The notes under the pieces were generated by a model. The model was not told where the DNA came from and did no database searches. It saw nothing but the letters and a program-made list of their open reading frames with translations. 64,000 nucleotides of DNA from Coptis chinensis. Lineage: Eukaryota > Streptophyta > Magnoliopsida > Ranunculales > Ranunculaceae. Location: the NCBI GenBank assembly GCA_015680905.1, contig CM027377.1, positions 37,534,501-37,598,500 on the forward strand. Reading direction: 5' to 3'. Numbering within the stretch: the stretch's first letter is position 1; each line of letters begins with the position of its first letter. The position numbers and the translations under genes are program-made. This document shows positions 2,056 to 21,733 of this stretch, piece after piece.

Positions 2056-4051
2056 TTCTATTAGTGTTAACACGTACGGTATAAGCAATAGTGTTTGAAC
2101 ACATTCGTTGCATCCCTTGAGCCAATCATGCAAAAATTATATAAAATGCACGTGCTCTGCACATAGATGGCAACTAAATGTTTTTAAAAAAGTACGCTAA
2201 CATACTTTTGTGTTCTAAGTTTTTTTTTTCTAAATTCTTTGATAAAATTATGTTACAGTTGGCAATTACTCGATTATAAATAAATTTTGTTGAAGACCCT
2301 AGCTTACATGGCAAACATACGAAGTGAAGAATAAATGCTTTGTCAAAATGTTAATAAGAAAAAAACAATAATTACTCCCTCAGTAAAGATGTGGAAATGA
2401 AAAGAGAATTGAAAGAAAAGTGCAAACACGCTTCTATGAAATAAGCAAATCCCTTAAGAGTAACACTTGAGATCCTTGACTGAAATGCACTACTTTTAAG
2501 GCTCTGCAAAACATATAAAAGTTGGTTTAGAAACCATGTTATTGAAATTGAAAGCTCGTCAAAGTCTCATAATTGCCGATTCACTGGAACAAAAAGTTTT
2601 TGTCAAAAACCAAGATTGTACTGAAGCTTTTGCACAAACCTTGCGTTGGACAAACAACCAAAGTTCTACATAACATCCACTGCAGGCTGGGATAGCATAG
2701 CCATTGTAAATGTTCTTTTTGGGCGAACCTTACGTGTGTAGGAATTTTGGGGAGAATGATGTTGCGACTGAGTTCGAAGGATCGAACTACCTATGTATCC
2801 AGTTTGTTGACGACCTAGAATCAAGTCGAACGTAGTTCATTGTTTGGATTCTATGATCGAATCATTGATGACGAACGGAGACGATGGAGAGTGGAGAAGA
2901 AGTATAGGATCCCCCCTTATTTAGAGAGTGGAAAGGAAATATATAGAATTCCTTCCCCCCTTTGGTGCTCCATGAATTGAATGAGATCCACTTTTAGTGC
3001 TCTATTCATTGATGATATTTAATATTTCATTGATAACTATTATTGCTCTATGCATGTATTCATGTTCATTTTGTAACCATTTGGTAACTTATGACTCTTG
3101 AGATAACCAATTGTAATGATCCAATAAGTTAGTTTTAAGATATGATCAATAGCAATGACACGTGTCGCGAATATATTGATGACAATATATGTCCCCCACA
3201 GCCATCACATTCAAATTTGTATGTGCTTTAAGTTTCTCCGAAGTTGCGTATCATAATCAAAAGAAACATTTTATTGGAAAACTTGCAATGTATCAAATCC
3301 AAATTGCTATTTCATTGTTTAAACAGGGACAATGTCGGAATGAGAATTTGTGCTCCAAACTTTTTCCTGAAGTGAAAAGGCAATAAGCCAATAACAACGT
3401 ACCTGCAGAAGTACTCAACAGGGAAAAAAAACCAAGTAAGATGGTTCTCCTGTCCTCTATTGAAACACATCATGATAACATTACCAATATGCAGTGAAGT
3501 AATTTGAGGTACACACATCGCTAAACCAATATCACATCATATCACCCATTAAAATTCAAATCAAGTTCTGGTTCCAGAACAGATTAACCAAATGAAATAA
3601 AAGTCGAAAAATAATTGGGGGAAAAAGAGTATAGCATATTTAAACATGGTTTCTTAAATATCAATAGCCATTATCTTTCCAGTAGAGCATATATTAATGC
3701 CATAACACATCTAAATAATCAAACAAAGCAACTAAATATTCATTACCAGTACACAAAAGTGTAAGTTCATTAATATGTCAAGAATCTTGAAAATAATTCT
3801 CAGTTAGACTAACTATCAAACACTTTTAACCACATTTAACTACTACTAAATTCCCCAACCCCTAAAATAGAAGACACCCTAACCAACTACTCCTACCCAA
3901 CCCCAAATTCTCATATCTAAAGCCCTTTCACCATAGATCCTCAAAGCCAACTGAATATCTTGGGCATAACAGTAACCCTCTTAGCATAAGATACTACGCT
4001 ACCTATTCATATACATAAGCTAATGCAAAATGCTAACTGATACCACAATGA
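2056..4051. other. No gene recognised
   Basis: AT-rich DNA without a coding signal I trust. The short opposed open frames near 3189-3518 overlap each other and show no family resemblance. Around 2700-2960 the composition is less AT-rich and resembles decayed repeat sequence, but I cannot bound it. Confidence 0.5.
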
Positions 4052-4327
4052 AACGTTTACTGATCTTAAATTCATTAGGAGTAAGACTTAGGTAGTGTAA
4101 TACTTGAACGTTTTGCATGCCATTAAGGAGTGGTTTGGTTGCTGCCGCTGCCATAAAATGCATAATCATTACCTTTGGCTAGAGAATTTAACGTTTACCG
4201 ATCTTAAATTCATTAGGAGTAAGACCTAGGTAGTGTAATACTTGAACTTTTTGCATGCCATTAGGGAGTGGTTTAGTTGTTGCCACTGCCATAAAATGCA
4301 TAATCATAACCTTTGGCTGGAGAATTT
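4052..4327. repeat. Tandem duplication, 2 x 138 bp
   Basis: The block starting AACGTTTAC at 4052 recurs head-to-tail at 4190, giving a 138-bp period. Copies 4052-4189 and 4190-4327 differ at only a few positions, mostly transitions. An open frame on the minus strand (4188-4376) is a by-product of the repeat. Confidence 0.9.
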
Positions 4328-4564
4328 TCAGCGAGCCAACATAAATTATACTCTCTTTGAGATTTGAGATAGGCATATATCTGATAGACTACATCTCTAT
4401 AACTTATTATAAATTTCAAGACTTAACTACCTTTAAAAAAAAATCATTCTGAGAAGAAAGCATTGAATTTTAGATTAGATAGTCCTAAGGAAACAATAAG
4501 TCCAAATTGACAAATCCAGGAGAAATATACTTGTTCTCTCCGGCCTATTGAGATAATGTATCCC

Positions 4565-4951
4565 TTAATGCCATGTTAAATGGGGGTGGTATACTGTAGG
4601 TAATAGACTATTAGTTGATAGAGGGGGTGGGGTTCCCCATCTCGCTATCAGTTGACAGTTGATAAATAGCTCGGGCGACACTTTAACCAACATCCGAACA
4701 AAAAAATTTGGACGTCACTTTAAGTCACGTCCCTTTCTAGTTCTAAAGTCATAATTTGCAATTTTTTAACTCCGACATCCCAGTTTAAGTGATGTCTGAG
4801 TTTAAAATCCAATTTTTTTTACAGTTTTTCATTGGGGACTATAGAGTGTGGATATTTATAGGCTATACAATAGTATGCAATTAGAGTTGTAAAATCCTAA
4901 TAGCACCTACGTGGAGGTGTAATTTTACACCCCCCATTAGAGATGCCCTAA
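4565..4951. mobile_element. Putative Harbinger/Tourist-like MITE
   Basis: The left end reads TTA, then ATGCCATGTTAAATGGGGG. The right end, read in reverse complement, is TTAGGGCATCTCTAATGGGG, so imperfect TIRs are bracketed by TTA/TAA, the usual PIF/Harbinger target. The interior holds inverted GACGTCACTTTAAGTCACGTC-type motifs and no coding capacity. The left TIR is degenerate, so that boundary is the weaker one. Confidence 0.45.
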
Positions 4952-5450
4952 TAGTTAGACTTATACTTATAAGACAGTCACAACGTATAGCCACTTCAAA
5001 TATACAAAGCTACAGTAATAATGTGTCTACTGGATCAATATTAGAAAGCAGATTGATCAAAATAGACCAATGTGAATAACAAAAATAGTTGCGAAAAGAA
5101 AATTACTCACACTACTTACGTAACCAAGACAATGCTGACAAATAACAATACTACTCGTGATTAAAAAAAACCACCTGAAAAAGTAAAAAAATGACTCCTC
5201 AAATACTCTCATTACTCCAGATGAAGCAAACAACAATCCTTCCACATATTGATAAAAGAAACATTTCAAAAATGTTTTTGATTTAGTAATATGCAAACTA
5301 CAGCAGAGCACCAAATTACTCTTGTTTCCTTCAAGCCAAATGGTAGATATTGTTTCTTGGGATTGATAAATTGATATGGAAGCCCCCTCCATCTAGATGG
5401 CATAATTAAGGCATTTTGATGGTTAATAGGACCTGCTAAAGGTGTAGCAT
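4952..5450. other. No gene recognised
   Basis: AT-rich sequence. A 111-codon minus-strand open frame (5057-5392) is rich in Phe/Leu/Ser and has no domain I recognise. It looks like a chance frame. Confidence 0.5.
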
Positions 5451-13164: not shown

Positions 13165-13193
13165 TGTGCAACATTCAGAAAGCCATTTCCAAC

Positions 13194-13505
13194 TGTCATG
13201 TCCCAGACATTGACCAAGGGCTATGGGGTATTATCTTTTATGTAGTAGGGGTAACCTAGTCATTTCCTTGTTAAGTGATTGGTTAGATGTTCGCCACATG
13301 TTTGGCCTTGATCTATTTTTTGAAAGCATTGAGCTTATATGTGTAGAAAAAAGGAAAATGCGAGATACGAAAAAAAGGTTAATGAGAAAAAGCTCTGAAC
13401 TTCATTTTTGAAGCAGAGAAGGCTCAACTTCATTATTGAAGTAGAGAAGTTTATCTCTTAATTGTTTTGGTTTCATTCAGTTGAATTGTTATTAGGGTCA
13501 TAACA
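13194..13505 (+). repeat. 5' LTR of the gene-capturing element
   Basis: It begins TGTCATGTCCC and ends GTCATAACA. Near 13390-13450 it contains an imperfect direct repeat of about 30 bp built on CTGAACTTCATTTTTGAAG and CAACTTCATTATTGAAG. The 3' copy keeps two bases (TG) that are missing here. Confidence 0.93.
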
Positions 13506-13507
13506 AT

Positions 13508-13519
13508 TGGTATCAGAGC
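13508..13519 (+). other. Primer-binding site, initiator tRNA-Met type
   Basis: TGGTATCAGAGC starts two bases after the 5' LTR and is complementary to the 3' end of plant initiator tRNA-Met, the usual primer of many copia and gypsy elements. Its position confirms the LTR edge and plus orientation. Confidence 0.9.
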
Positions 13520-13935
13520 ATTCAATCCTTGACAAAGATGATGGAGATGCAAGATGGGGTTCTCAACTAGCAGAACAAGTGGAGAGAGAGGCTCAAACAT
13601 GGGAGAGTTATGAGAAAAGGATGGATGAGCGATTTGACAAGTTATTTAAGCTGCTAAATGATATGGGGTATATAGAAATGGAGAAACAAGCTGAAGCAGG
13701 ACTTTCTTCAAACATAGAGACGCCATTAGAGACCTTCACTGAAGCTGAAAGTCCAACTCATCGAGTCGACTCAGAAAAAGCACCAAAATATGCAGAGAGA
13801 AATCTAACTAGTACAATGATAACACCATCAATTCCAATCAATGAATCATCAAGTGCAGAATCAATTGAACAAGTCAGTGAAGGTAAATCATCATATGTTT
13901 TAACTTTCGTAGTTTCATTTGTCAGTTTTTCTGTA
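13520..13935 (+). pseudogene. Leader segment of the chimeric ORF, origin unknown
   Basis: It is open and in frame with everything downstream to about 16.09 kb. It has a charged, probably coiled-coil stretch (AEQVEREAQTWESYEKRMDE then RFDKLFKLLNDMGYIEMEKQ) followed by a Ser/Thr/Glu-rich region. I do not recognise it. It may be the element's own residual gag-like N-terminus or a fourth captured host piece. No ATG lies at the very start of the frame. The first in-frame ATG is at 13621, inside the coiled-coil stretch, so the original start is unclear. Confidence 0.5.
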
Positions 13936-14630
13936 AATAATGGAATTGGTATTATTAGAAACAAATGGGGTAGTTTACTTGGTTTACTTAAAGTTGTTTC
14001 CAAATATCAAAATGAGAAGAAATGTGATTCTAAGGCTTCTTCTGGTTTTGGATCAACCTATAACTATGGACTCCCGGTTTTATTTGATGGGAAGTGTGGG
14101 AAAATTTATAAGAATTTAAATGGGAGTGCTGTTTTAGACTCTGTTAAAGTGACCAGGGTTATGGTTTGAAAGTTCTGTGAATTAAGGTGGTTGTTTGATA
14201 AAGGGAAATGTTATGTTTGTGAGAATATGAATAAGTTTCTAGCTAGAGGTGTTGGAACAGATAGACAAATTTTTTGTGCTACATTGCAACATAAGCTTTT
14301 GGAGTATTATAAGATGTTGGCAGTACTTGAAGCACTTTCGATGAATCAGGTAGTGAGTTTGGGAAATTATTTTTTGATAAATCAGGTGGTGAGTTTGGGA
14401 AATTATTTTTCGATGAGGTGATTGTCAATTTGGTTAAATGGGCCAATGTTTAAGATGAGATTGGAAGTTGTTTTGGTTGATAGTTGTAAGATTTTGAAAA
14501 GTAGGGCAATGGCTGGTGCAATTCCTAATCATGCTCAACATGGTGACCCTTTGGTGCAAGAGTTTTTGAGGCGTCTACTTCAACGAGTGTGGCCTCCACT
14601 TTACGAAATGGTAAGAAGTTGGCTTTTGGT
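13936..14630 (+). pseudogene. Captured GCP3 (gamma-tubulin complex component 3) fragment
   Basis: GCP3/SPC98 is a core subunit of the microtubule-nucleating gamma-tubulin complex. The recognisable order is NKWGSLLGLLKVVS (N-terminal region), then a deletion, then NGSAVLDSVKVTRVMV, FCELRWLFDKGK, LQHKLLEYYKMLAVLEALSM, and finally AMAGAIPNHAQHGDPLVQEF with RVWPPLYEMVRSW. These follow the collinear order of plant GCP3. The frame is constant, with stop codons at 14167-14169 and 14419-14421. A short duplication around 14346-14400 repeats NQVVSLGNYF. Segments that are separate exons in plant genes, as far as I recall, are joined without intron sequence. It fuses in frame to NOP56 sequence at about 14630. 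Confidence 0.8.
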
Positions 14631-14890
14631 AGGGGGAATTACAGAAGCAGCCAAAGCATCCATGAGACAAGAAATTTCTATAACTGAGTTGATCAATGTC
14701 GAACAATTTGTCAGGACGGTCATGATCCTTGTTGAGCACAGGAAGAGGCTCCATGAATATTTGGCGAAAAAAATGAATGACCGCATGACTAATTCGGCTT
14801 CTCTTATTGGTGAAATTGTTGGGGCTTATCTGATTTGTCATGCTAGTAGTCTCCCAAATTTTGTCAGGTGCACTCCTTTGACACCTCATG
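14631..14890 (+). pseudogene. Captured NOP56 fragment
   Basis: NOP56 is a core protein of box C/D snoRNPs that guide rRNA 2'-O-methylation in the nucleolus. The fragment reads ITEAAKASMRQEISITELIN, then VEQFVRTVMILVEHRKRLHE, KMNDRMTNSASLIGEIVGA and LICHASSLPN. This is the conserved Nop-domain entry (family form EAAKASMGQ...DLINVQQFAQRVMDLSEYR...MNDIAPNLASLIGE). It stays in frame with the GCP3 part upstream and the ankyrin part downstream, apart from a TAG at 14941-14943 in the linker. Only about 85 codons are present, far less than the full protein of about 500 residues. Confidence 0.82.
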
Positions 14891-14943
14891 TAAGGATATT
14901 CAATCAAAGCAATACTTCTGTTCTGGTTGGTCGCAATTTCTAG

Positions 14944-16165
14944 AAGCAGCAGAATACAAACCCAGAACTAACTCGTTTTCTCATTTACCAAAACACTAAC
15001 ACTAGTGAAAGGAAAGGTTATGTTTCAGGAGAGAGATTGGTATCAGCGGCGAGAGATGGAGGTTTATTTGAAGTGAAGATGTTACTGGAATTCAATCCAT
15101 GTCTAGCTAAGTACTCTACATATGGTGGTCTCAATTCCCCTCTTCATTTTGCTGCTACTAGAGGGCACATTGAGATTGTAGCATTGTTACTTGAGAATGG
15201 GGCAGATTTGAATTCGAGGAATTATTGTGGATAGACTACGTTGATGCATGCGGGTCGGCATGGACACTGGGAAGTTAGGCATACTCTTCTACTGTTCAAA
15301 AGCAATGTTACTCAAGCAGACTATCTCAGTGGAAGAACATCTCTTTATTTTGCAGCTGTAAATGGCCATGTTAGATGCGTAAGACTTGTTGTGGCAGACT
15401 TTGTGCCGAGTGAGTGTTATGAGATTACTAGTGCTCAGACCAACAATGGTGATAGAGACAATGGGTCTATTTTAAAGAACAAATATGGTCAATGTGCACT
15501 ATCTAAGTTTGTAAATATAGCAGGGGATGGTGCTAAAACAGCTCTGCATAGGGCCGCATTGAATGGTTACTTCGATTGTGTACAACTACTACTCGACATT
15601 CAGGCAAACATCTTGGCAGTGGTATTTTAGTATGGCACGTCTACCGATTTGATAGGAGCTAGCAGCACTCCTTTGCATTATGTTGCATGTGGAGGAAACC
15701 TAAAGTGTTGTCAGATGCTTCTTACAAGAGGAGCTAGTCGAAGGACATTGAATTGCAATGGGTGGTTGCCGATTGATGTTGCAAGGATATGAGGATGCCA
15801 TTGGCTTGAACCATTGCTCTCACCCAATTTTAATTCAGACATACCGACATTTGCACCATCAAATTGTCTTTCCTTGCCTCTCTTAAGTGTGCTTAATATA
15901 GCAAGAGAGTGTGGGTTGCAGTCCTCTACCTCCTATGATGAAAGTGATGTTTGTGTTGTCTGCCGAGAGAGCGCATGCACTGTAGCGGGTGAAGGTTGTG
16001 GGCATGCTTTGTGTGTGCGGTATGCACATTATCTCTGTTCAATAAACCATATACCTTATAAAATGGATGGACCACCTGGTTCCCTTCCATTCTCCTCCCC
16101 CAATGTCGGCATGGCATTATCTCTTTTGTTAAATTGCCCTATTCCCAAGCGAAGGAGCCTCATGA
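14944..16165 (+). pseudogene. Captured XBAT31-like ankyrin-repeat/RING E3 ligase gene
   Basis: The intact family (XB3/XBAT) are plant E3 ubiquitin ligases with N-terminal ankyrin repeats and a C-terminal RING finger. The piece starts at [12 protein letters not shown], close to the family N-terminus, and runs through repeats such as [72 protein letters not shown] and [20 protein letters not shown] to the RING ([20 protein letters not shown]). Stops occur at 15232 (TAG), 15628 (TAG) and 15790 (TGA, where the family has Trp). A RING cysteine is replaced (LCVRYA for LCVRCA). After a frameshift near 16090 the RING end [11 protein letters not shown] is still readable. The copy is continuous without introns, so it is a reverse-transcribed message. 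Which XBAT member it came from is uncertain. Confidence 0.85.
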
Positions 16166-16330
16166 GGTTACTACTTTACAAGCTTATGAATCATATTTGT
16201 TTCAATTTACAATATATTATATAATGTTGGAAGTCTTGGAAGTGTCGTGGGCCATTTTATGGATGAAATGGATGCTGCAAAAGATCTAGGTGATTTGTTT
16301 TGCAATACACAGGAAGTCAGAAGTCACGGG
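16166..16330 (+). pseudogene. Second GCP3 fragment, from the C-terminal region
   Basis: [20 protein letters not shown] and, after small frame changes, MDEMDAAKDLGDL match the order of the plant GCP3 C-terminal half (MNHFVTNxQYYIMxEVLEVSW ... EMDAAKDLDDL). The XBAT and NOP56 pieces therefore sit between an early/middle and a late part of one GCP3 message. Frame breaks: a 2-base insertion near 16215 and one shift near 16250. What follows to 16480 is not recognised. Confidence 0.72.
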
Positions 16331-16510
16331 ACAGATTCTATGCAAATCTCTAGAGTTGCAGGCAATAAGTCGATCGCTCCAAGTGCTCTTAAGGCAGTAA
16401 CATGAGTTCTTTTCCAATGTTCTAACACCATTACTGATGATGCCACATGGAAAGATTGCTCCCACATTTCTGTTCCGTTTTCTCATTTCAATCCTTGAGG
16501 ACAAGGATTT
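16331..16510 (+). other. 3' internal region of the gene-capturing element
   Basis: An unidentified stretch up to the polypurine tract. Its last 40 bases (ATTTCAATCCTTGAGGACAA, then GGATTTTAAAGGGG) resemble the conserved sequence before the polypurine tract of other plant gypsy elements. Confidence 0.5.
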
Positions 16511-16522
16511 TAAAGGGGAAGG
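16511..16522 (+). other. Polypurine tract of the gene-capturing element
   Basis: TAAAGGGGAAGG is the second-strand primer site. In the original element it was followed by TAT and the 3' LTR, as seen across 21408-21416 after the duplicated GAAGG. The nested element entered exactly here. Confidence 0.85.
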
Positions 16523-16798
16523 TTATGCAGGGCGATAGACTCAAGTAGCACTCAACCCTCGCAACAATGAATAGAATAATCTCTATTCGTATTATAACTC
16601 AAAATTCATAAAAGTCCCTTTCTCAAAACCCTACCTAGCCTTTATATAGGCAACGTAAACAAAACAAACATGTGAAATAACAACTACTGGGTTATTGCTC
16701 TGCGGTGTGTACAAAGCCCAAACACCTCTGATAGAATTCACCACAGAACTTTGATAGAGCATAGCACACATAACTCTGACAGAACTCAAACTGCATCA
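16523..16798 (-). repeat. 3' LTR of the nested gypsy element
   Basis: On the plus strand it begins TTATGCAGGGCGATAG and ends CTGCATCA. Its partner is 21132-21407, of identical length (276 bp). Confidence 0.93.
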
Positions 16799-18279
16799 TT
16801 CCCCCCTGCGTGGGAGAAATTCGACCTCGAATTTGGCTTGTCTTCATCTGAAGAAGTATCACAATAAGGACGAAGGTGCTTCACGTTAAAAACATCCGAA
16901 GTACAGAAATGATCAGGTAACTGCAACCGATATGCATTGGAATTGATCTTGGCAATGACCTCCAGAGGACCAATCTTGCGAGGGCCCAATTTGTTGTACC
17001 TACCAGCTGGAATCCAATCCTTAGTAAGAACAGCCCAAACAAAATCTCCTACTGCAAAGCTCACATTTCGGCGGTGGCGATCAGCAGCGAACTTATACTT
17101 CGAGTTAAAGTCGAGCAAATGATGTTGAGTAACGTCGTGAACAGTGTGAATTTCCTTAATGAAGTCACCAGCAGTACCATGCATACGAGATAAATCCAGA
17201 ACAGGAGCCAAATCAATAGGAGAGCGGGGATTAAAGCCGTAAACAATCTGGAAAGGACTGTAACCCGTACTCTTGTTCACTGAACGATTAAAAGAAAACT
17301 TTGCCTGAAACAACACATGCTCCCAACGTTTAGTATTCTGACCTACCAAACTGCGAAGGAGATTACCCAAAGAACGATTCACCACCTCTGTCTGACCATT
17401 CGTTTGAGGATGATATGCACTATTGAACTTAAGGTCGGTATGAACAAGCTTCCACAAACTCCGCCAAAAATGGCTCAAAAATTTAGTATCCCGATCAGAC
17501 ACAATAGACTCAGGTAAACCATGGAGATGATAGACATCCTTAAAGAAAAGTTGAGCAACATTCACAGCGTTAGTGGTTTTCTTCCAGGCAATGAAGTGTG
17601 CCATCTTAGAAAACCTATCAACAACCACGAACACAGAATCCATACCCCGTTGGGTGCGAGGTAAACCCACAACAAAATCCATACTAATATCAGCCCATGG
17701 ACGAACTGGAGCAAGTAATGGCATATACAACCCAGCATTGTTAGCACTGCCTTTAGCAACCTGGCAGATACGACAACGGTCCACAAAGTTATGCACCTCT
17801 CTAGTCATATTAGGCCAGAAGTAAGAATCAGAAACAAGGTTGTATGTCTTATCACGCCCAAAATGCCCAGCACCATGTAACTCCCTAATAATCAGCAATC
17901 TAAGACTACAATCCAGAACACATAAACGTCTACCTTTGAAAAGAAACCCATCATGGAGAAGGTAATCAGAGCGCTTACCCGCCCTCATCTCAGCCACAAT
18001 AGAAGAGAAGAAAAGATCATCAGCTATCAAATCACGAAAACTGTCAAAACCAGCTACTTGTGTTCGCATAGACACCAACAAAGACACACGCCTACTGAGA
18101 GCATCTGCCACATGGTTCTGAGCACTCGATGTATGCTTAAGCACAAAAGTAAAATCTTGTAGATAACTGGACCAGCGTAACTGGCGAACGTTAACCTTAT
18201 CCTGTGTTCCAATATGCTTTAGAGATTCGTGATCAATATGTAGAACAAACTCATTGTGAATTAGGTATAGTGACGCCAA
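16786..18279 (-). CDS. RNase H C-terminal part and integrase of the nested gypsy element
   Basis: A 497-codon open frame. Residues about 10-62 are the tail of gypsy RNase H ([10 protein letters not shown], then HVADALSRR). The integrase zinc-binding motif HHCC is at H135, H139, C169 and C172. The catalytic D-D-E is visible in SMDFVVGLP (D201), VSDRDTKF (D262) and GQTEVVNR (E298). A GPY/F-type module ([21 protein letters not shown]) follows near residues 420-455. The protein would insert cDNA into the genome. The frame is offset from the reverse transcriptase frame, overlapping by about 19 bases at 18261-18279, which is a frameshift relative to a functional polyprotein. The first Met is not a true start. 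Confidence 0.92.
16799..16809 (-). other. Polypurine tract of the nested gypsy element
   Basis: On the minus strand GCAGGGGGGAA directly precedes the 3' LTR. Confidence 0.8.
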
Positions 18280-19619
18280 TGCTTAAGTGTTTGAATAATG
18301 GCGTAAAATTTCAACTCATAGGCACCATAGTTTTGTTTGGCGCCAGTTAATTTCTCACTAAAAAAAGCCAAAGGACGTCGGGTTTGGCTAAGAACAGCCC
18401 CAATACCCACCTTAGAAGCATCGGTATGAACCTCATACGGCAAAGAGAAATTAGGTAATGCAAGAACTGGTGTGGTGATCAATTTTTGCTTAAGCAAAGC
18501 AAAGCTCGCATCTGCTGCCTCAGTCCAAATGAATTTCCCACTCTTCATGCAGTCAGTAATCGGTGCGGTGATAATACTAAAGTTGGGAATAAACCTCCGA
18601 TAGAATGATGTGAACCCGTGGAAACTCCGACATTCATGTAAACTGGCCGGCCTAGGCCACTGTTGAACTGCATCCACCTTAGTCTCATCCACCGAAATGC
18701 CATCCTTGGAAACCACATACCCCAAAAAGAGAACACTATAAACACAGAAAGAACACTTCTGAACTACCGCATACAATTGAGCAGCCCTCAACGCATGCAA
18801 AACCTCGCGCAACTGTCGTAAGTGCGACTCTAAGTCAGGACTATAAATCAGGATGTCATCAAAGTAGACGACAACACAACGACCAATAAATGGTTTCAAC
18901 ACCTGGTTCATCACTCGCATAAATGTGCTAGGGGCGTTTGAAAGCCCAAACGGCATGACCAGCCACTCAAATAAGCCTTCACGAGTTTTAAAAGCCGTTT
19001 TCCATTCATCCCCAACCCGAATACGTATCTGATGGTATCCACTCTTTAAATCCAACTTGGTAAACACCATGGCACCATACAACTGATTTAATAAATCATC
19101 TAGACGAGGTATGGGAAAGCGGTATTTAACAGTAATTTTATTAATAGCTCGACTATCCACACACATACGCCAACTACCATCCTTCTTTGGGGTCAAAAGA
19201 GCTGGAACGGCACAAGGACTAAGGCTCTCATGGATGTGACCTTTGTTAATTAAATCACCAACCTGTCGCTTGAGTTCTTCATGTTCCTGGGGACTCATGC
19301 GATAGTGTGGGCGATTTGGAAGGCCAGACCCTGGCACAAGGTCGATATGGTGTTGAATATCCCGTAAAGGCGGCAACCCATTGGGCAAATCAACAGGGAA
19401 AACATCCTAAAATTCATCTAGCAGACCCTGAACACAACCCGGTACATCACCAGCACCACCACTAGCCTGTCCTAGTAATAAATATACCACGCCCGACTCG
19501 GCCATCTCCTCTTCAAACCGACACATAGACAGAAGGCTAGAGGACCCATTCACCTCCGTACTCGGTGCTGGAACTACTGTCTTAGTTGGCATCAAGATAA
19601 TGCGCACTGAGTCAACCAT
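18261..19619 (-). pseudogene. Reverse transcriptase and start of RNase H of the nested gypsy element
   Basis: The main open frame is 18261-19388 (375 codons). It has [32 protein letters not shown], the palm motif [11 protein letters not shown] (YFDD at 175-178) and the thumb and start of RNase H ([25 protein letters not shown]). An in-frame TAG at 19407-19409 separates it from the linker 19410-19619, which carries on in the same frame. Ends with a stop at 18261 where the RNase H should continue, so a frameshift moves the reading to the integrase frame. Confidence 0.92.
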
Positions 19620-19720
19620 AAAACTGTAGGTATTCTGTCGTCCATCAGTACAGCTCCTCTATCAAACTACCACGGTCTTCCTAACAATAGATGATAGGCA
19701 TCCATTGCTACCACATCACA

Positions 19721-21097
19721 CTAGACCTTGTCTTTGTACTTAGAACCAATAGAAAAACTCACTAAGCAACGTCCAGAAACCGTTACCTCGGTAGTCTTGC
19801 TCAACCAGGACAACGCATATGGCTTGGGATGTTTTTCAGTTGGTATTTTCAGTTTCTTCACGGCTTCCTCATAAATCACATTCTCACAGCTACCAGAGTC
19901 AATAACAAGATGACAAACCTTCCCAACAATTGTGCATGTCGAGTGAAAAATGTTATGGCGTAGCCAACCATCACCACCCTCATCCTTGGGTGTGAAACAA
20001 ACCCGATGCACTACTAAGAGCTCTCCTTGATCACCATGAACAACTTCTTCAGGTGAGTCTTCTTCACCAACATCAAACAAAGGATTATCAAAGTCGTGAA
20101 GTTGTTCCTCTCTTTCGTCTTCATTATCGACAAACAAATTCTTCTTTTTGCAATTAGAAGTGATATGACCTTTCTCACCACAATTAAAACATGTTGTATC
20201 CCTAAACCTTTGTTGTCCGCCACCCTGCAGATTTGTGGGCCTATTAGAAGGCACAGTGTTTGGCACAATGTTTGGACGAGCAGTTGTGGTATATGAAACT
20301 CCTCCCCTGCAGTTAAACTGCTTCTCTAAACACAAAGCCCTTTGATGGGCTTCCAAAACTGACCAAGGATCAAACAAATTCAGCGTATCTTGGAAGTTCA
20401 GGCACAAGCCTCCAATATAGCGATGCATGAGTTGCTCCTCAGACTCTACTAAATCTGCCCGAACCACCAATTGATTGAAGTCTTTGATGTATTCATCTAT
20501 GGATTGGGCTCCTTGCCTTAAACTTTGGAGACAGTTATACAAATCCCGCTTGTAGTTATAAGGTAAAAAGGCAGCATGCATGTACTTCTTTAACTTCTCC
20601 CAAGTTTCAATCTTTTTCTTGCCCTGTCGGTTTCTAGTGGCCTTAGTTTGTTGATACCATGCAGAAGCCCTCCCTCTAAATCTCATGACCACAAGAGGAA
20701 CCCGCTTGTTCTCAGGGACCTCTTTGAACTCGAGAATCTCCTCTACAATACAGATCCAATCGATAAGCTCATCAGGCTGTAGATTGCCTTGGAACTCAGG
20801 AATCTCTACCTTTATCCCAGATTCGGTAGCCTTGATTCTTATTATGCGTCGCCGAAACTCTGGTCGGTCTAAATCAGCAAAAGGGTTTTCACCCTCATCA
20901 TCATCACTACTTTCTTCAATCCACGAGAAAGCTTAACGAGCGGCCACTCTCCGCCATTGCTTTGAACAATTTGCCAATTGGGCGGTGAGCGCATCAACCT
21001 GCCGTTGGAGATCAGCCACACGATCTCGCTCATACACATCTGCAAGAGGATCTATTCTTTGAACTCCACGACCTGCTCCACGTCTACCACGAGGCAT
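19721..21097 (-). pseudogene. gag and protease of the nested gypsy element
   Basis: The likely start is the Met at 21097 (MPRGRRGAGRG). The frame holds one TAA at 20933-20935 and then continues without shift through the capsid region (FRGRASAWYQQTK, FLPYNYKRDLYNCLQSLRQG, YIGGL), the zinc knuckle CFNCGEKGHITSNC and an aspartic protease with VIDSGSCENVI, stopping at 19721. Beyond that stop the protease end (AMDAYHLLLGRPW) can still be read with further stops and a frameshift near 19640, so the link to reverse transcriptase is lost. Confidence 0.88.
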
Positions 21098-21117
21098 AAT
21101 GTCAGGAAAGAGTGTTG

Positions 21118-21131
21118 GCTCCGATACTAGA
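21118..21131 (-). other. Primer-binding site of the nested gypsy element
   Basis: On the minus strand TAGTATCGGAGCC follows the 5' LTR. It is a slightly altered version of the initiator tRNA-Met complement TGGTATCAGAGCC. Confidence 0.75.
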
Positions 21132-21407
21132 TTATGCAGGGCGATAGACTCAAGTAGCACTTAACCCTCGCAACAATGAATAGAATAATCTCTATTCATA
21201 TTATAACTCAAAATTCATAAAAGTCCCTTCCTCAAAACCCTACCTAGCCTTTATATAGGCAACGTAAACAAAACAAACATGTGAAATAACAACTGCTGGG
21301 CTATTGCTCTGCGGTGTGTACAAGGCCCAAACACCTCTGACAGAACTCAACATAGAACTCTGACAGAGCACAACACACATAACTCTGACATAACTTAAAT
21401 TGCATCA
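21132..21407 (-). repeat. 5' LTR of the nested gypsy element
   Basis: The upstream LTR in the element's own direction. A TATATAAAGG box is read on the minus strand near 21250-21260, consistent with promoter function. Confidence 0.92.
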
Positions 21408-21415
21408 GAAGGTAT

Positions 21416-21728
21416 TGTCATGTCCCAGACATTGACCAAAGGCTATGGGGTATTATCTTTTATGTAGTAGGGTAACTTAGTCATTTCCTTGTTAAGTGAT
21501 TGGTTAGATGTTTGCCACATGTTTGGCCTTGATCTATTTTTTGAAAGCATTGAGCTTATATGTGCGGAAAAAAGGAAAACGCAAGATATGAAAAAAAGGT
21601 TAATGAGAAAAGGCTCTGAACTTCATTTTTGAAGCAGAGAAGGCTCTGAACTTCATTATTGAAGTAGAGAAGTTTATCTCTTAATTGTTTTGGTTTCATT
21701 CAGTTGAATTGTTATTAGGGTCATAACA
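21416..21728 (+). repeat. 3' LTR of the gene-capturing element
   Basis: A 313-bp partner of 13194-13505, beginning TGTCATG and ending CATAACA, followed by the TSD CCAAC. Between it and the nested element lie GAAGG (the duplicated target) and TAT. Confidence 0.93.
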
Positions 21729-21733
21729 CCAAC

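Follow-up and report, generated by a model that had tools for sequence, protein, structure and literature searches.

A stretch of 64,000 nucleotides of Coptis chinensis DNA (assembly GCA_015680905.1, contig CM027377.1, positions 37,534,501 to 37,598,500, hereafter the window) contains at positions 13194-21728 a long terminal repeat (LTR) retrotransposon carrying pieces of three host genes, GCP3, NOP56 and an XBAT31-type ankyrin/RING gene. This element is one member of a multi-copy, modular family resembling Bs1 of maize, in which at least five host mRNAs (GCP3, SUCLA, NOP56, XBAT31 and BUD23) have been captured stepwise, GCP3 first. The family is very probably an old, recently active and non-autonomous derivative of Ty3/gypsy elements, shaped by serial capture of spliced host mRNAs through template switching and by recombination between its members. 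When LTR elements transduce genes, what is usually seen is a single frozen event. In this family intermediates have survived within one genome, so that capture order, switch points and recombination among members are directly readable.

The outer element and a second element nested in it

The preliminary description of this interval, made from the letters alone, had proposed complete LTRs, the target-site duplication (TSD) CCAAC, a primer binding site and a polypurine tract (PPT), all of which were recovered. The LTR pair has TG...CA ends, is identical at 302 of 311 aligned sites (Kimura two-parameter distance 0.030), and together with the primer binding site, which we take to be of the initiator-methionine-tRNA type, the PPT and the TSD it defines a complete LTR retrotransposon insertion. 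The accompanying statement that the LTRs enclose no recognisable pol has to be dropped: most of the interval is occupied by a second, minus-strand Ty3/gypsy element (16526-21407) with a pol of its own. The features are as follows.

13189..13193, no strand: TSD CCAAC of the outer element, left copy
13194..13505, plus: 5' LTR of the outer element, 312 bp
13506..13753, plus: leader with truncated gag N-terminus, common to the sister copies
13508..13519, plus: primer binding site of the outer element, TGGTATCAGAGC
13754..14049, plus: captured GCP3, first part, 73% identical to the GCP3 gene in L039 (3708-4009)
14084..14633, plus: captured GCP3, second part, 76% identical to L039 4201-4741; Pfam PF17681
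14634..14870, plus: captured piece of NOP56, lacking one donor intron; Pfam PF01798
14871..15021, plus: segment M, boundaries approximate (read by eye); also found at C9:5738600
15022..16158, plus: captured XBAT31-type ankyrin/RING complementary DNA (cDNA), nine donor introns absent; Pfam Ank, RING_XB3-XBAT31
16186..16293, plus: second, more 3' GCP3 piece, 84% identical to L039 5583-5689
16512..16522, plus: PPT of the outer element, AAAGGGGAAGG, split by the nested element
16518..16522 (left, in the outer PPT) and 21408..21412 (right): TSD GAAGG of the nested element
16526..21407, minus: nested Ty3/gypsy element, LTRs at 16526-16798 and 21135-21407
16789..18279, minus: nested element, integrase and end of RNase H (Pfam)
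18264..19388, minus: nested element, reverse transcriptase / RNase H (Pfam)
19724..20692, minus: nested element, gag, zinc knuckle and weak protease match (Pfam)
21416..21728, plus: 3' LTR of the outer element, 313 bp
21729..21733, no strand: TSD CCAAC of the outer element, right copy

The host content named at the outset was borne out by Pfam and, in part, by the sequences of the PDB. The plus-strand open reading frames of 14422-16221 matched the GCP N-terminal domain (5e-11), Nop (2.4e-13) and ankyrin repeats (1e-11) in Pfam; the RING_XB3-XBAT31 match had an E-value of 2.8e-10, yet its 40.5 bits lie under the cut-off of 50. Against PDB sequences, the frames of the window recovered NOP56 at 5e-14 and GCP3 weakly, at 0.002. 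Added here to this content are the second GCP3 piece (16186-16293), segment M and, from other members of the family, the donors SUCLA and BUD23.

The LTRs of the nested element are 93.8% identical, and the bases TTA at 16523-16525 are probably part of it. In all seven sister copies whose 3' end was inspected, the joint between PPT and LTR is uninterrupted (six with GGGGAAGGTATTGTCATG, L029 with a slightly shorter tract), which indicates that the nested element inserted into the outer PPT. The nested LTRs differ at 17 of 273 sites and the older outer LTRs at 9 of 311, opposite to what nesting leads one to expect (P 0.07); gene conversion in the outer LTRs or changes driven by methylation might be the cause. 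With the nested element excluded, the outer element has about 3.0 kb of internal sequence, which rules out its being a terminal-repeat retrotransposon in miniature (TRIM), a class whose internal region spans just a few hundred bases. Its own coding trace of gag-pol is limited to the short gag-like leader, and it thus lacks the gag, protease, reverse transcriptase, RNase H and integrase of an autonomous Ty3/gypsy element. The leader of the sister copy L032 matches C8:4172569-4172707 at 83% over 139 bases, at the start of a Ty3/gypsy stretch (L052) in which Pfam recognises Retrotrans_gag, Ty3_capsid, RVT_1 and Integrase_H2C2. By eye, the gag start of this stretch resembles the element leader; the window leader taken alone has no Pfam gag match. 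To judge from this residual homologous sequence, the outer element is Ty3/gypsy-derived.

Sister copies, donor genes and order of capture

A genome search with the window LTR, suggested earlier as the way to sister copies, recovered that LTR and its partner plus two weak matches. Internal sequence served better: the 3.0 kb gave 79 matches, from the best 40 of 106 first-look candidates, and among the matches listed at least 20 loci, the window included, carry an element-type leader and/or GCP3, a lower bound that leaves out the donor gene and bare GCP3 pieces. Their inserts are partly shared. With the LTR of L033 as query, 42 matches were obtained from the best 40 of 64 candidates. Twenty genome stretches (L-numbers) were fetched, and clear LTR pairs were seen in L025, L029, L031, L032, L033, L035 and L036. 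Six of them have 5-bp TSDs (L025 TATAA, L029 TAATC, L031 CACGC, L032 GCATA, L033 TCATC, L035 ATGCT) and LTR-pair identities of 92.7-100%. The LTRs of L033 are identical over 307 bases, so its insertion is recent. In L038 the pair is degraded (75-76%); in L034 and the donor stretch L041 the repeats are unrelated, and the remaining fetched stretches showed no pair. Module maps of 16 element loci, including the window and counting L027/L028 once, are these.

Window: leader-GCP3-NOP56-(M)-XBAT31-GCP3
L025: leader-GCP3-[LINE-like insert]-NOP56-(M)-XBAT31 first four exons-SUCLA remnant-GCP3
L027/L028: as L025; L026 likewise as far as fetched
L029, L030, L031, L033, L035, L036: leader-GCP3-NOP56-(M)-SUCLA-GCP3
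L032: leader-GCP3-BUD23-SUCLA-GCP3
L034, L043 and degraded L038: leader-GCP3-SUCLA
L037, L040: leader-GCP3 (3' part outside view)

The same junctions recur across these copies. GCP3|NOP56 is present in 10 of the 16 loci and in both main clades, and SUCLA|GCP3, at about 3953-3962|4999-5004, in 9 of the 12 SUCLA-bearing loci. In every copy whose 3' part is seen, the later captures sit between two parts of GCP3. In L025, XBAT31 is placed within M, as if the enzyme had left M and then returned (by eye). The same copy has at 4122-5220 (element orientation) a reverse transcriptase fragment like that of a long interspersed nuclear element (LINE) within captured GCP3 (weak Pfam RVT_1 match, 0.013), with an open frame continuous with GCP3 on both sides; its insertion site is common to L025, L026, L027 and L034, the last having 3.2 kb there.

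Donor loci for all five genes were found elsewhere in this genome. The GCP3 donor on C7 (L039) has Pfam GCP_N at 5e-79 and GCP_C at 1e-71, and the NOP56 donor on C6 (L042) has Nop at 1e-23. For the other three, one exon each was scanned: the XBAT31-type donor on C3 (L041) matches ankyrin at 7e-5, the SUCLA beta donor on C5 (L049) matches ATP-grasp at 2e-4, under the curated cut-off, and the BUD23 donor on C1 (L050) gave no Pfam match. L044 is an XBAT31 paralogue and not an element. The two genes seen only in sisters were named through PDB sequences, succinyl-CoA ligase beta (SUCLA) at 1e-20 and the 18S rRNA guanine-N7 methyltransferase BUD23 at 2e-12. The captured copies are spliced: XBAT31 lacks nine donor introns, of which eight fit exactly and the ninth is offset by one base and poorly flanked; BUD23 lacks seven (five exact, two offset by one base), and SUCLA lacks six, five of them judged from L032 and the sixth from L034. 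For one of the SUCLA introns the automatic fit was poor and placement was by hand. The single NOP56 intron, 4171-4244 of L042, was placed on the sister L036; in the window copy the join falls at the same position. Across the captured part the GCP3 donor consists of one long exon, so that an absence of introns there is uninformative. The earlier statement that the window genes are intron-free therefore stands for XBAT31 and NOP56, and for GCP3 it says nothing of splicing. The donors of GCP3 (L039, about 4010-4100) and BUD23 (L050, exon 1) each show an apparent one-base frame break, perhaps an assembly error, and single-base indels in the copies accordingly need caution.

Synonymous divergence (dS) from the donor is 0.42-0.53 for GCP3 (4 copies), 0.24-0.32 for SUCLA (4), 0.20-0.29 for NOP56 (3) and 0.21-0.26 for XBAT31 (2), the highest values making GCP3 the oldest capture, in agreement with the structure. 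The BUD23 blocks are 86-98% identical to their donor. The structure of the copies further suggests that NOP56 was captured before XBAT31 and SUCLA before BUD23.

Members of the family have also recombined. In the GCP3 tree the window groups with L032 (support 88) and L034 with L025-L027 (support 100). L034 differs from L025-L027 by 5.6-5.8% in GCP3 and shares their insert site; GCP3|SUCLA replaces their NOP56-M-XBAT31, with a junction lying more 3' in GCP3 than the NOP56 junction, an arrangement that could not arise through loss alone. L030 is 3-5% from L029, L031, L033 and L035 in GCP3. In the LTR, L030 is 4% from L037, a copy that differs from it by 30% in GCP3, and 27-29% from the four others where aligned. 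These discordances indicate that members exchanged both internal segments and LTRs with one another or with elements not seen here.

The course of events that best accounts for these maps would begin with a gag-pol element that lost its coding region past the first part of gag and gained GCP3 cDNA. Enzymes provided in trans would have reverse-transcribed the RNA of the family and integrated the product. Reverse transcriptase would have switched repeatedly onto spliced SUCLA, NOP56, XBAT31 and BUD23 mRNAs and then back to element RNA, and such switching would also have recombined different members. The lineage of the window, leader-GCP3-NOP56-M-XBAT31-GCP3, would later have been struck in its PPT by the unrelated gypsy element.

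Reading frame of the captured sequences

In the window, the frame from 13507 ends with a stop at 16222, is interrupted by six stops before it (14167, 14419, 14941, 15232, 15628, 15790) and spans the gag leader, GCP3, NOP56 and XBAT31 except for its end, which by eye lies in another frame. The captured protein sequence evolves nearly freely, the ratio of nonsynonymous to synonymous divergence (dN/dS) being about 0.8. GCP3 divergence at the three codon positions is 0.181, 0.211 and 0.169 over all pairs of 15 copies, with no third-position excess, and GCP3 dN/dS is 0.51-1.07 in 13 of 14 pairs and 1.88 in one close pair.

The number of stops points in another direction. Six new in-frame stops were observed against 22.4 expected in 18 lineage-by-gene tests, which share some branches, and none of 1000 simulations was as low; with GCP3 left out, 3 were observed and 8.4 expected (P 0.026). 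The control frames of this test are not flat (39 vs 33.3 expected; 22 vs 29.6, P 0.07), and for GCP3 only, one control frame reaches P 0.027. Taken singly, 1 of 12 copies falls below 0.05 (L030), and L043 has more new SUCLA stops than expected (2 vs 1.6). Indels show a similar contrast between genes, multiples of three making up 21 of 29 in GCP3 (all five pairs), 10 of 60 in the LTRs (all eight pairs), 4 of 28 in SUCLA (three pairs), and none of 2 in either XBAT31 or NOP56. Restricted to less overlapping pairs, which were picked after the counts had been seen, 13 of 19 GCP3 indels are in frame, vs 5 of 27 in the LTRs (P 0.0009), a weak control in which several pairs are more than 40% different, and vs 4 of 28 in SUCLA (P 0.0002). 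Moreover, all five captured genes are in phase with the upstream sequence in at least one copy (partly by eye), with a chance probability of (1/3)^5 given one try each. At the 3' joins, SUCLA|GCP3 is in phase in L032 and out of phase in L036, and the phase of XBAT31|GCP3 is ambiguous; BUD23 brings a stop in its own 5' leader.

A purely neutral frame fits the codon-position counts, most dN/dS intervals and the indels of SUCLA, XBAT31 and NOP56, but not the stop counts or the GCP3 indels, and was set aside. Altogether, the data suggest a past filter for an open frame on the 5' part, not absolute today. As a tentative extension, with the odds rather against it, the family may keep its RNA translatable through any captured coding sequence, in such a way that only captures continuing the gag frame persist and stops and frame-breaking indels are filtered while amino acids hardly matter. 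Captured host exons would then be open-frame filler, useful for instance as protection from nonsense-mediated decay or as a link between translation and packaging. Free amino-acid change, few stops and mostly in-frame GCP3 indels raise the question whether non-autonomous LTR elements need an open frame in cis even where they have no need of a particular protein.

It appears unlikely that the chimeric frame became a functional gene whose protein is maintained by selection, the idea put forward for maize Bs1. Such a gene would account for the phase of the five genes and the shortage of new stops, and the dN/dS interval does lie below 1 for two of 14 GCP3 pairs (L036/L037, L025/L036) and for SUCLA in L033/L036. 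The other 12 GCP3 intervals include 1, NOP56 in window/L036 is above 1, selection on a protein is at odds with the even codon positions, and in L033, the youngest copy, the frame is broken.

Routes of capture, related systems and further copies

The insertion as DNA of LINE-made retrocopies (processed pseudogenes), afterwards carried along by the element, seems slightly less credible still: the pieces are spliced and the LINE-like fragment of L025-L027 is accompanied by about 7 bp of duplicated GCP3, but the XBAT31 and BUD23 pieces are joined on their 3' side without poly(A), XBAT31 is cut within coding sequence at both ends, and SUCLA replaced GCP3 sequence instead of adding to it. A single burst of template switches in the window element, as the preliminary description had imagined, would explain three pieces in one element, intron-free where testable, and is very improbable, being contradicted by the junctions common to sisters, by GCP3 and NOP56 joined without XBAT31 in six of them (L029, L030, L031, L033, L035, L036) and by the unequal dS of the window copy from its donors (GCP3 0.42 vs XBAT31 0.26 and NOP56 0.20; bootstrap intervals cover dN/dS only). 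Switching onto packaged mRNAs remains the most likely step in that proposal; it is the one-element picture that gives way to stepwise captures shared by descent.

Several observations weigh against serial capture by template switching within one family. No donor gene was identified for segment M, which as a query of about 280 bp (the L033 copy) also stands alone at L051 (C9:5738600-5739100) and at four places on C2. Microhomology at the switch points is short, as read by eye and without statistics, and there is none or almost none at GCP3|SUCLA. An intact gag-pol partner with the same LTRs was not among the recovered loci, a result with no leader search of the genome behind it. The dS ranges of NOP56, SUCLA and XBAT31 overlap and are inseparable, leaving their order to structure. 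Finally, the window LTR is 43-53% different from all eight sister LTRs aligned with it (L025, L029, L030, L032, L033, L035, L036, L037), vs 15-25% for the inner parts, and is like them in short end regions only; recombination is the likely reason for these odd LTRs.

In its mode of action the family is closest to maize Bs1, described in a review as an LTR element with pieces of three host genes in a hybrid reading frame (PMC13317346). Like Bs1, the outer element joins pieces of several host genes in one LTR element; here they are intron-free, with GCP3 uninformative on this point. The host genes are different, however, and the Coptis family has five donors, captures that vary between copies in a readable order, and members that recombine. 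A transcribed and translated hybrid frame would be a further mark of Bs1-like elements; the frame in the window has six stops. The same review explains the chimeras Veju and BARE-2 of wheat and barley by abnormal template switching among unrelated RNAs that share a particle (PMC13317346). In those elements the foreign part comes from another retroelement or from DNA of unknown kind; in the Coptis family it would come, several times, from spliced host mRNA. Contrary to the first assumption, gene capture as such is not a rare event among plant LTR elements: a maize survey counts 425 intact elements with gene fragments (PMC2774510). None of these, according to that survey, holds fragments of more than one standard nuclear gene, in line with the earlier remark that several genes per element are unusual. 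A survey of rice and sorghum gives in its abstract 672 and 1,343 captured genes in rice and sorghum elements, in that order, and in its results 1,343 non-transposon proteins in 1,318 rice elements (PMC3726574), so that some elements must hold more than one. As in these maize, rice and sorghum captures, host gene pieces lie in LTR elements and some are amplified along with them (PMC2774510, PMC3726574); the examples in the rice and sorghum text concern amplification of single captured genes (PMC3726574), here serial captures of several. Searches of the open-licence literature turned up no description of five genes captured serially within one family. The leader-GCP3 frame of L025, compared with a large protein set, yielded 490 candidates and none at E 0.01, relatives in other species being neither found nor excluded.

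Further GCP3 pieces lie at L047, L048, C6:14150078, C8:19410327 and C1:22713830. Those at C1:33477093 and C2:62465093 have nearly equal ends and no leader match, and were perhaps captured by another kind of element. A 4-kb stretch at C1:61853430-61857358 with related LTR pieces and a leader may hold other captures.

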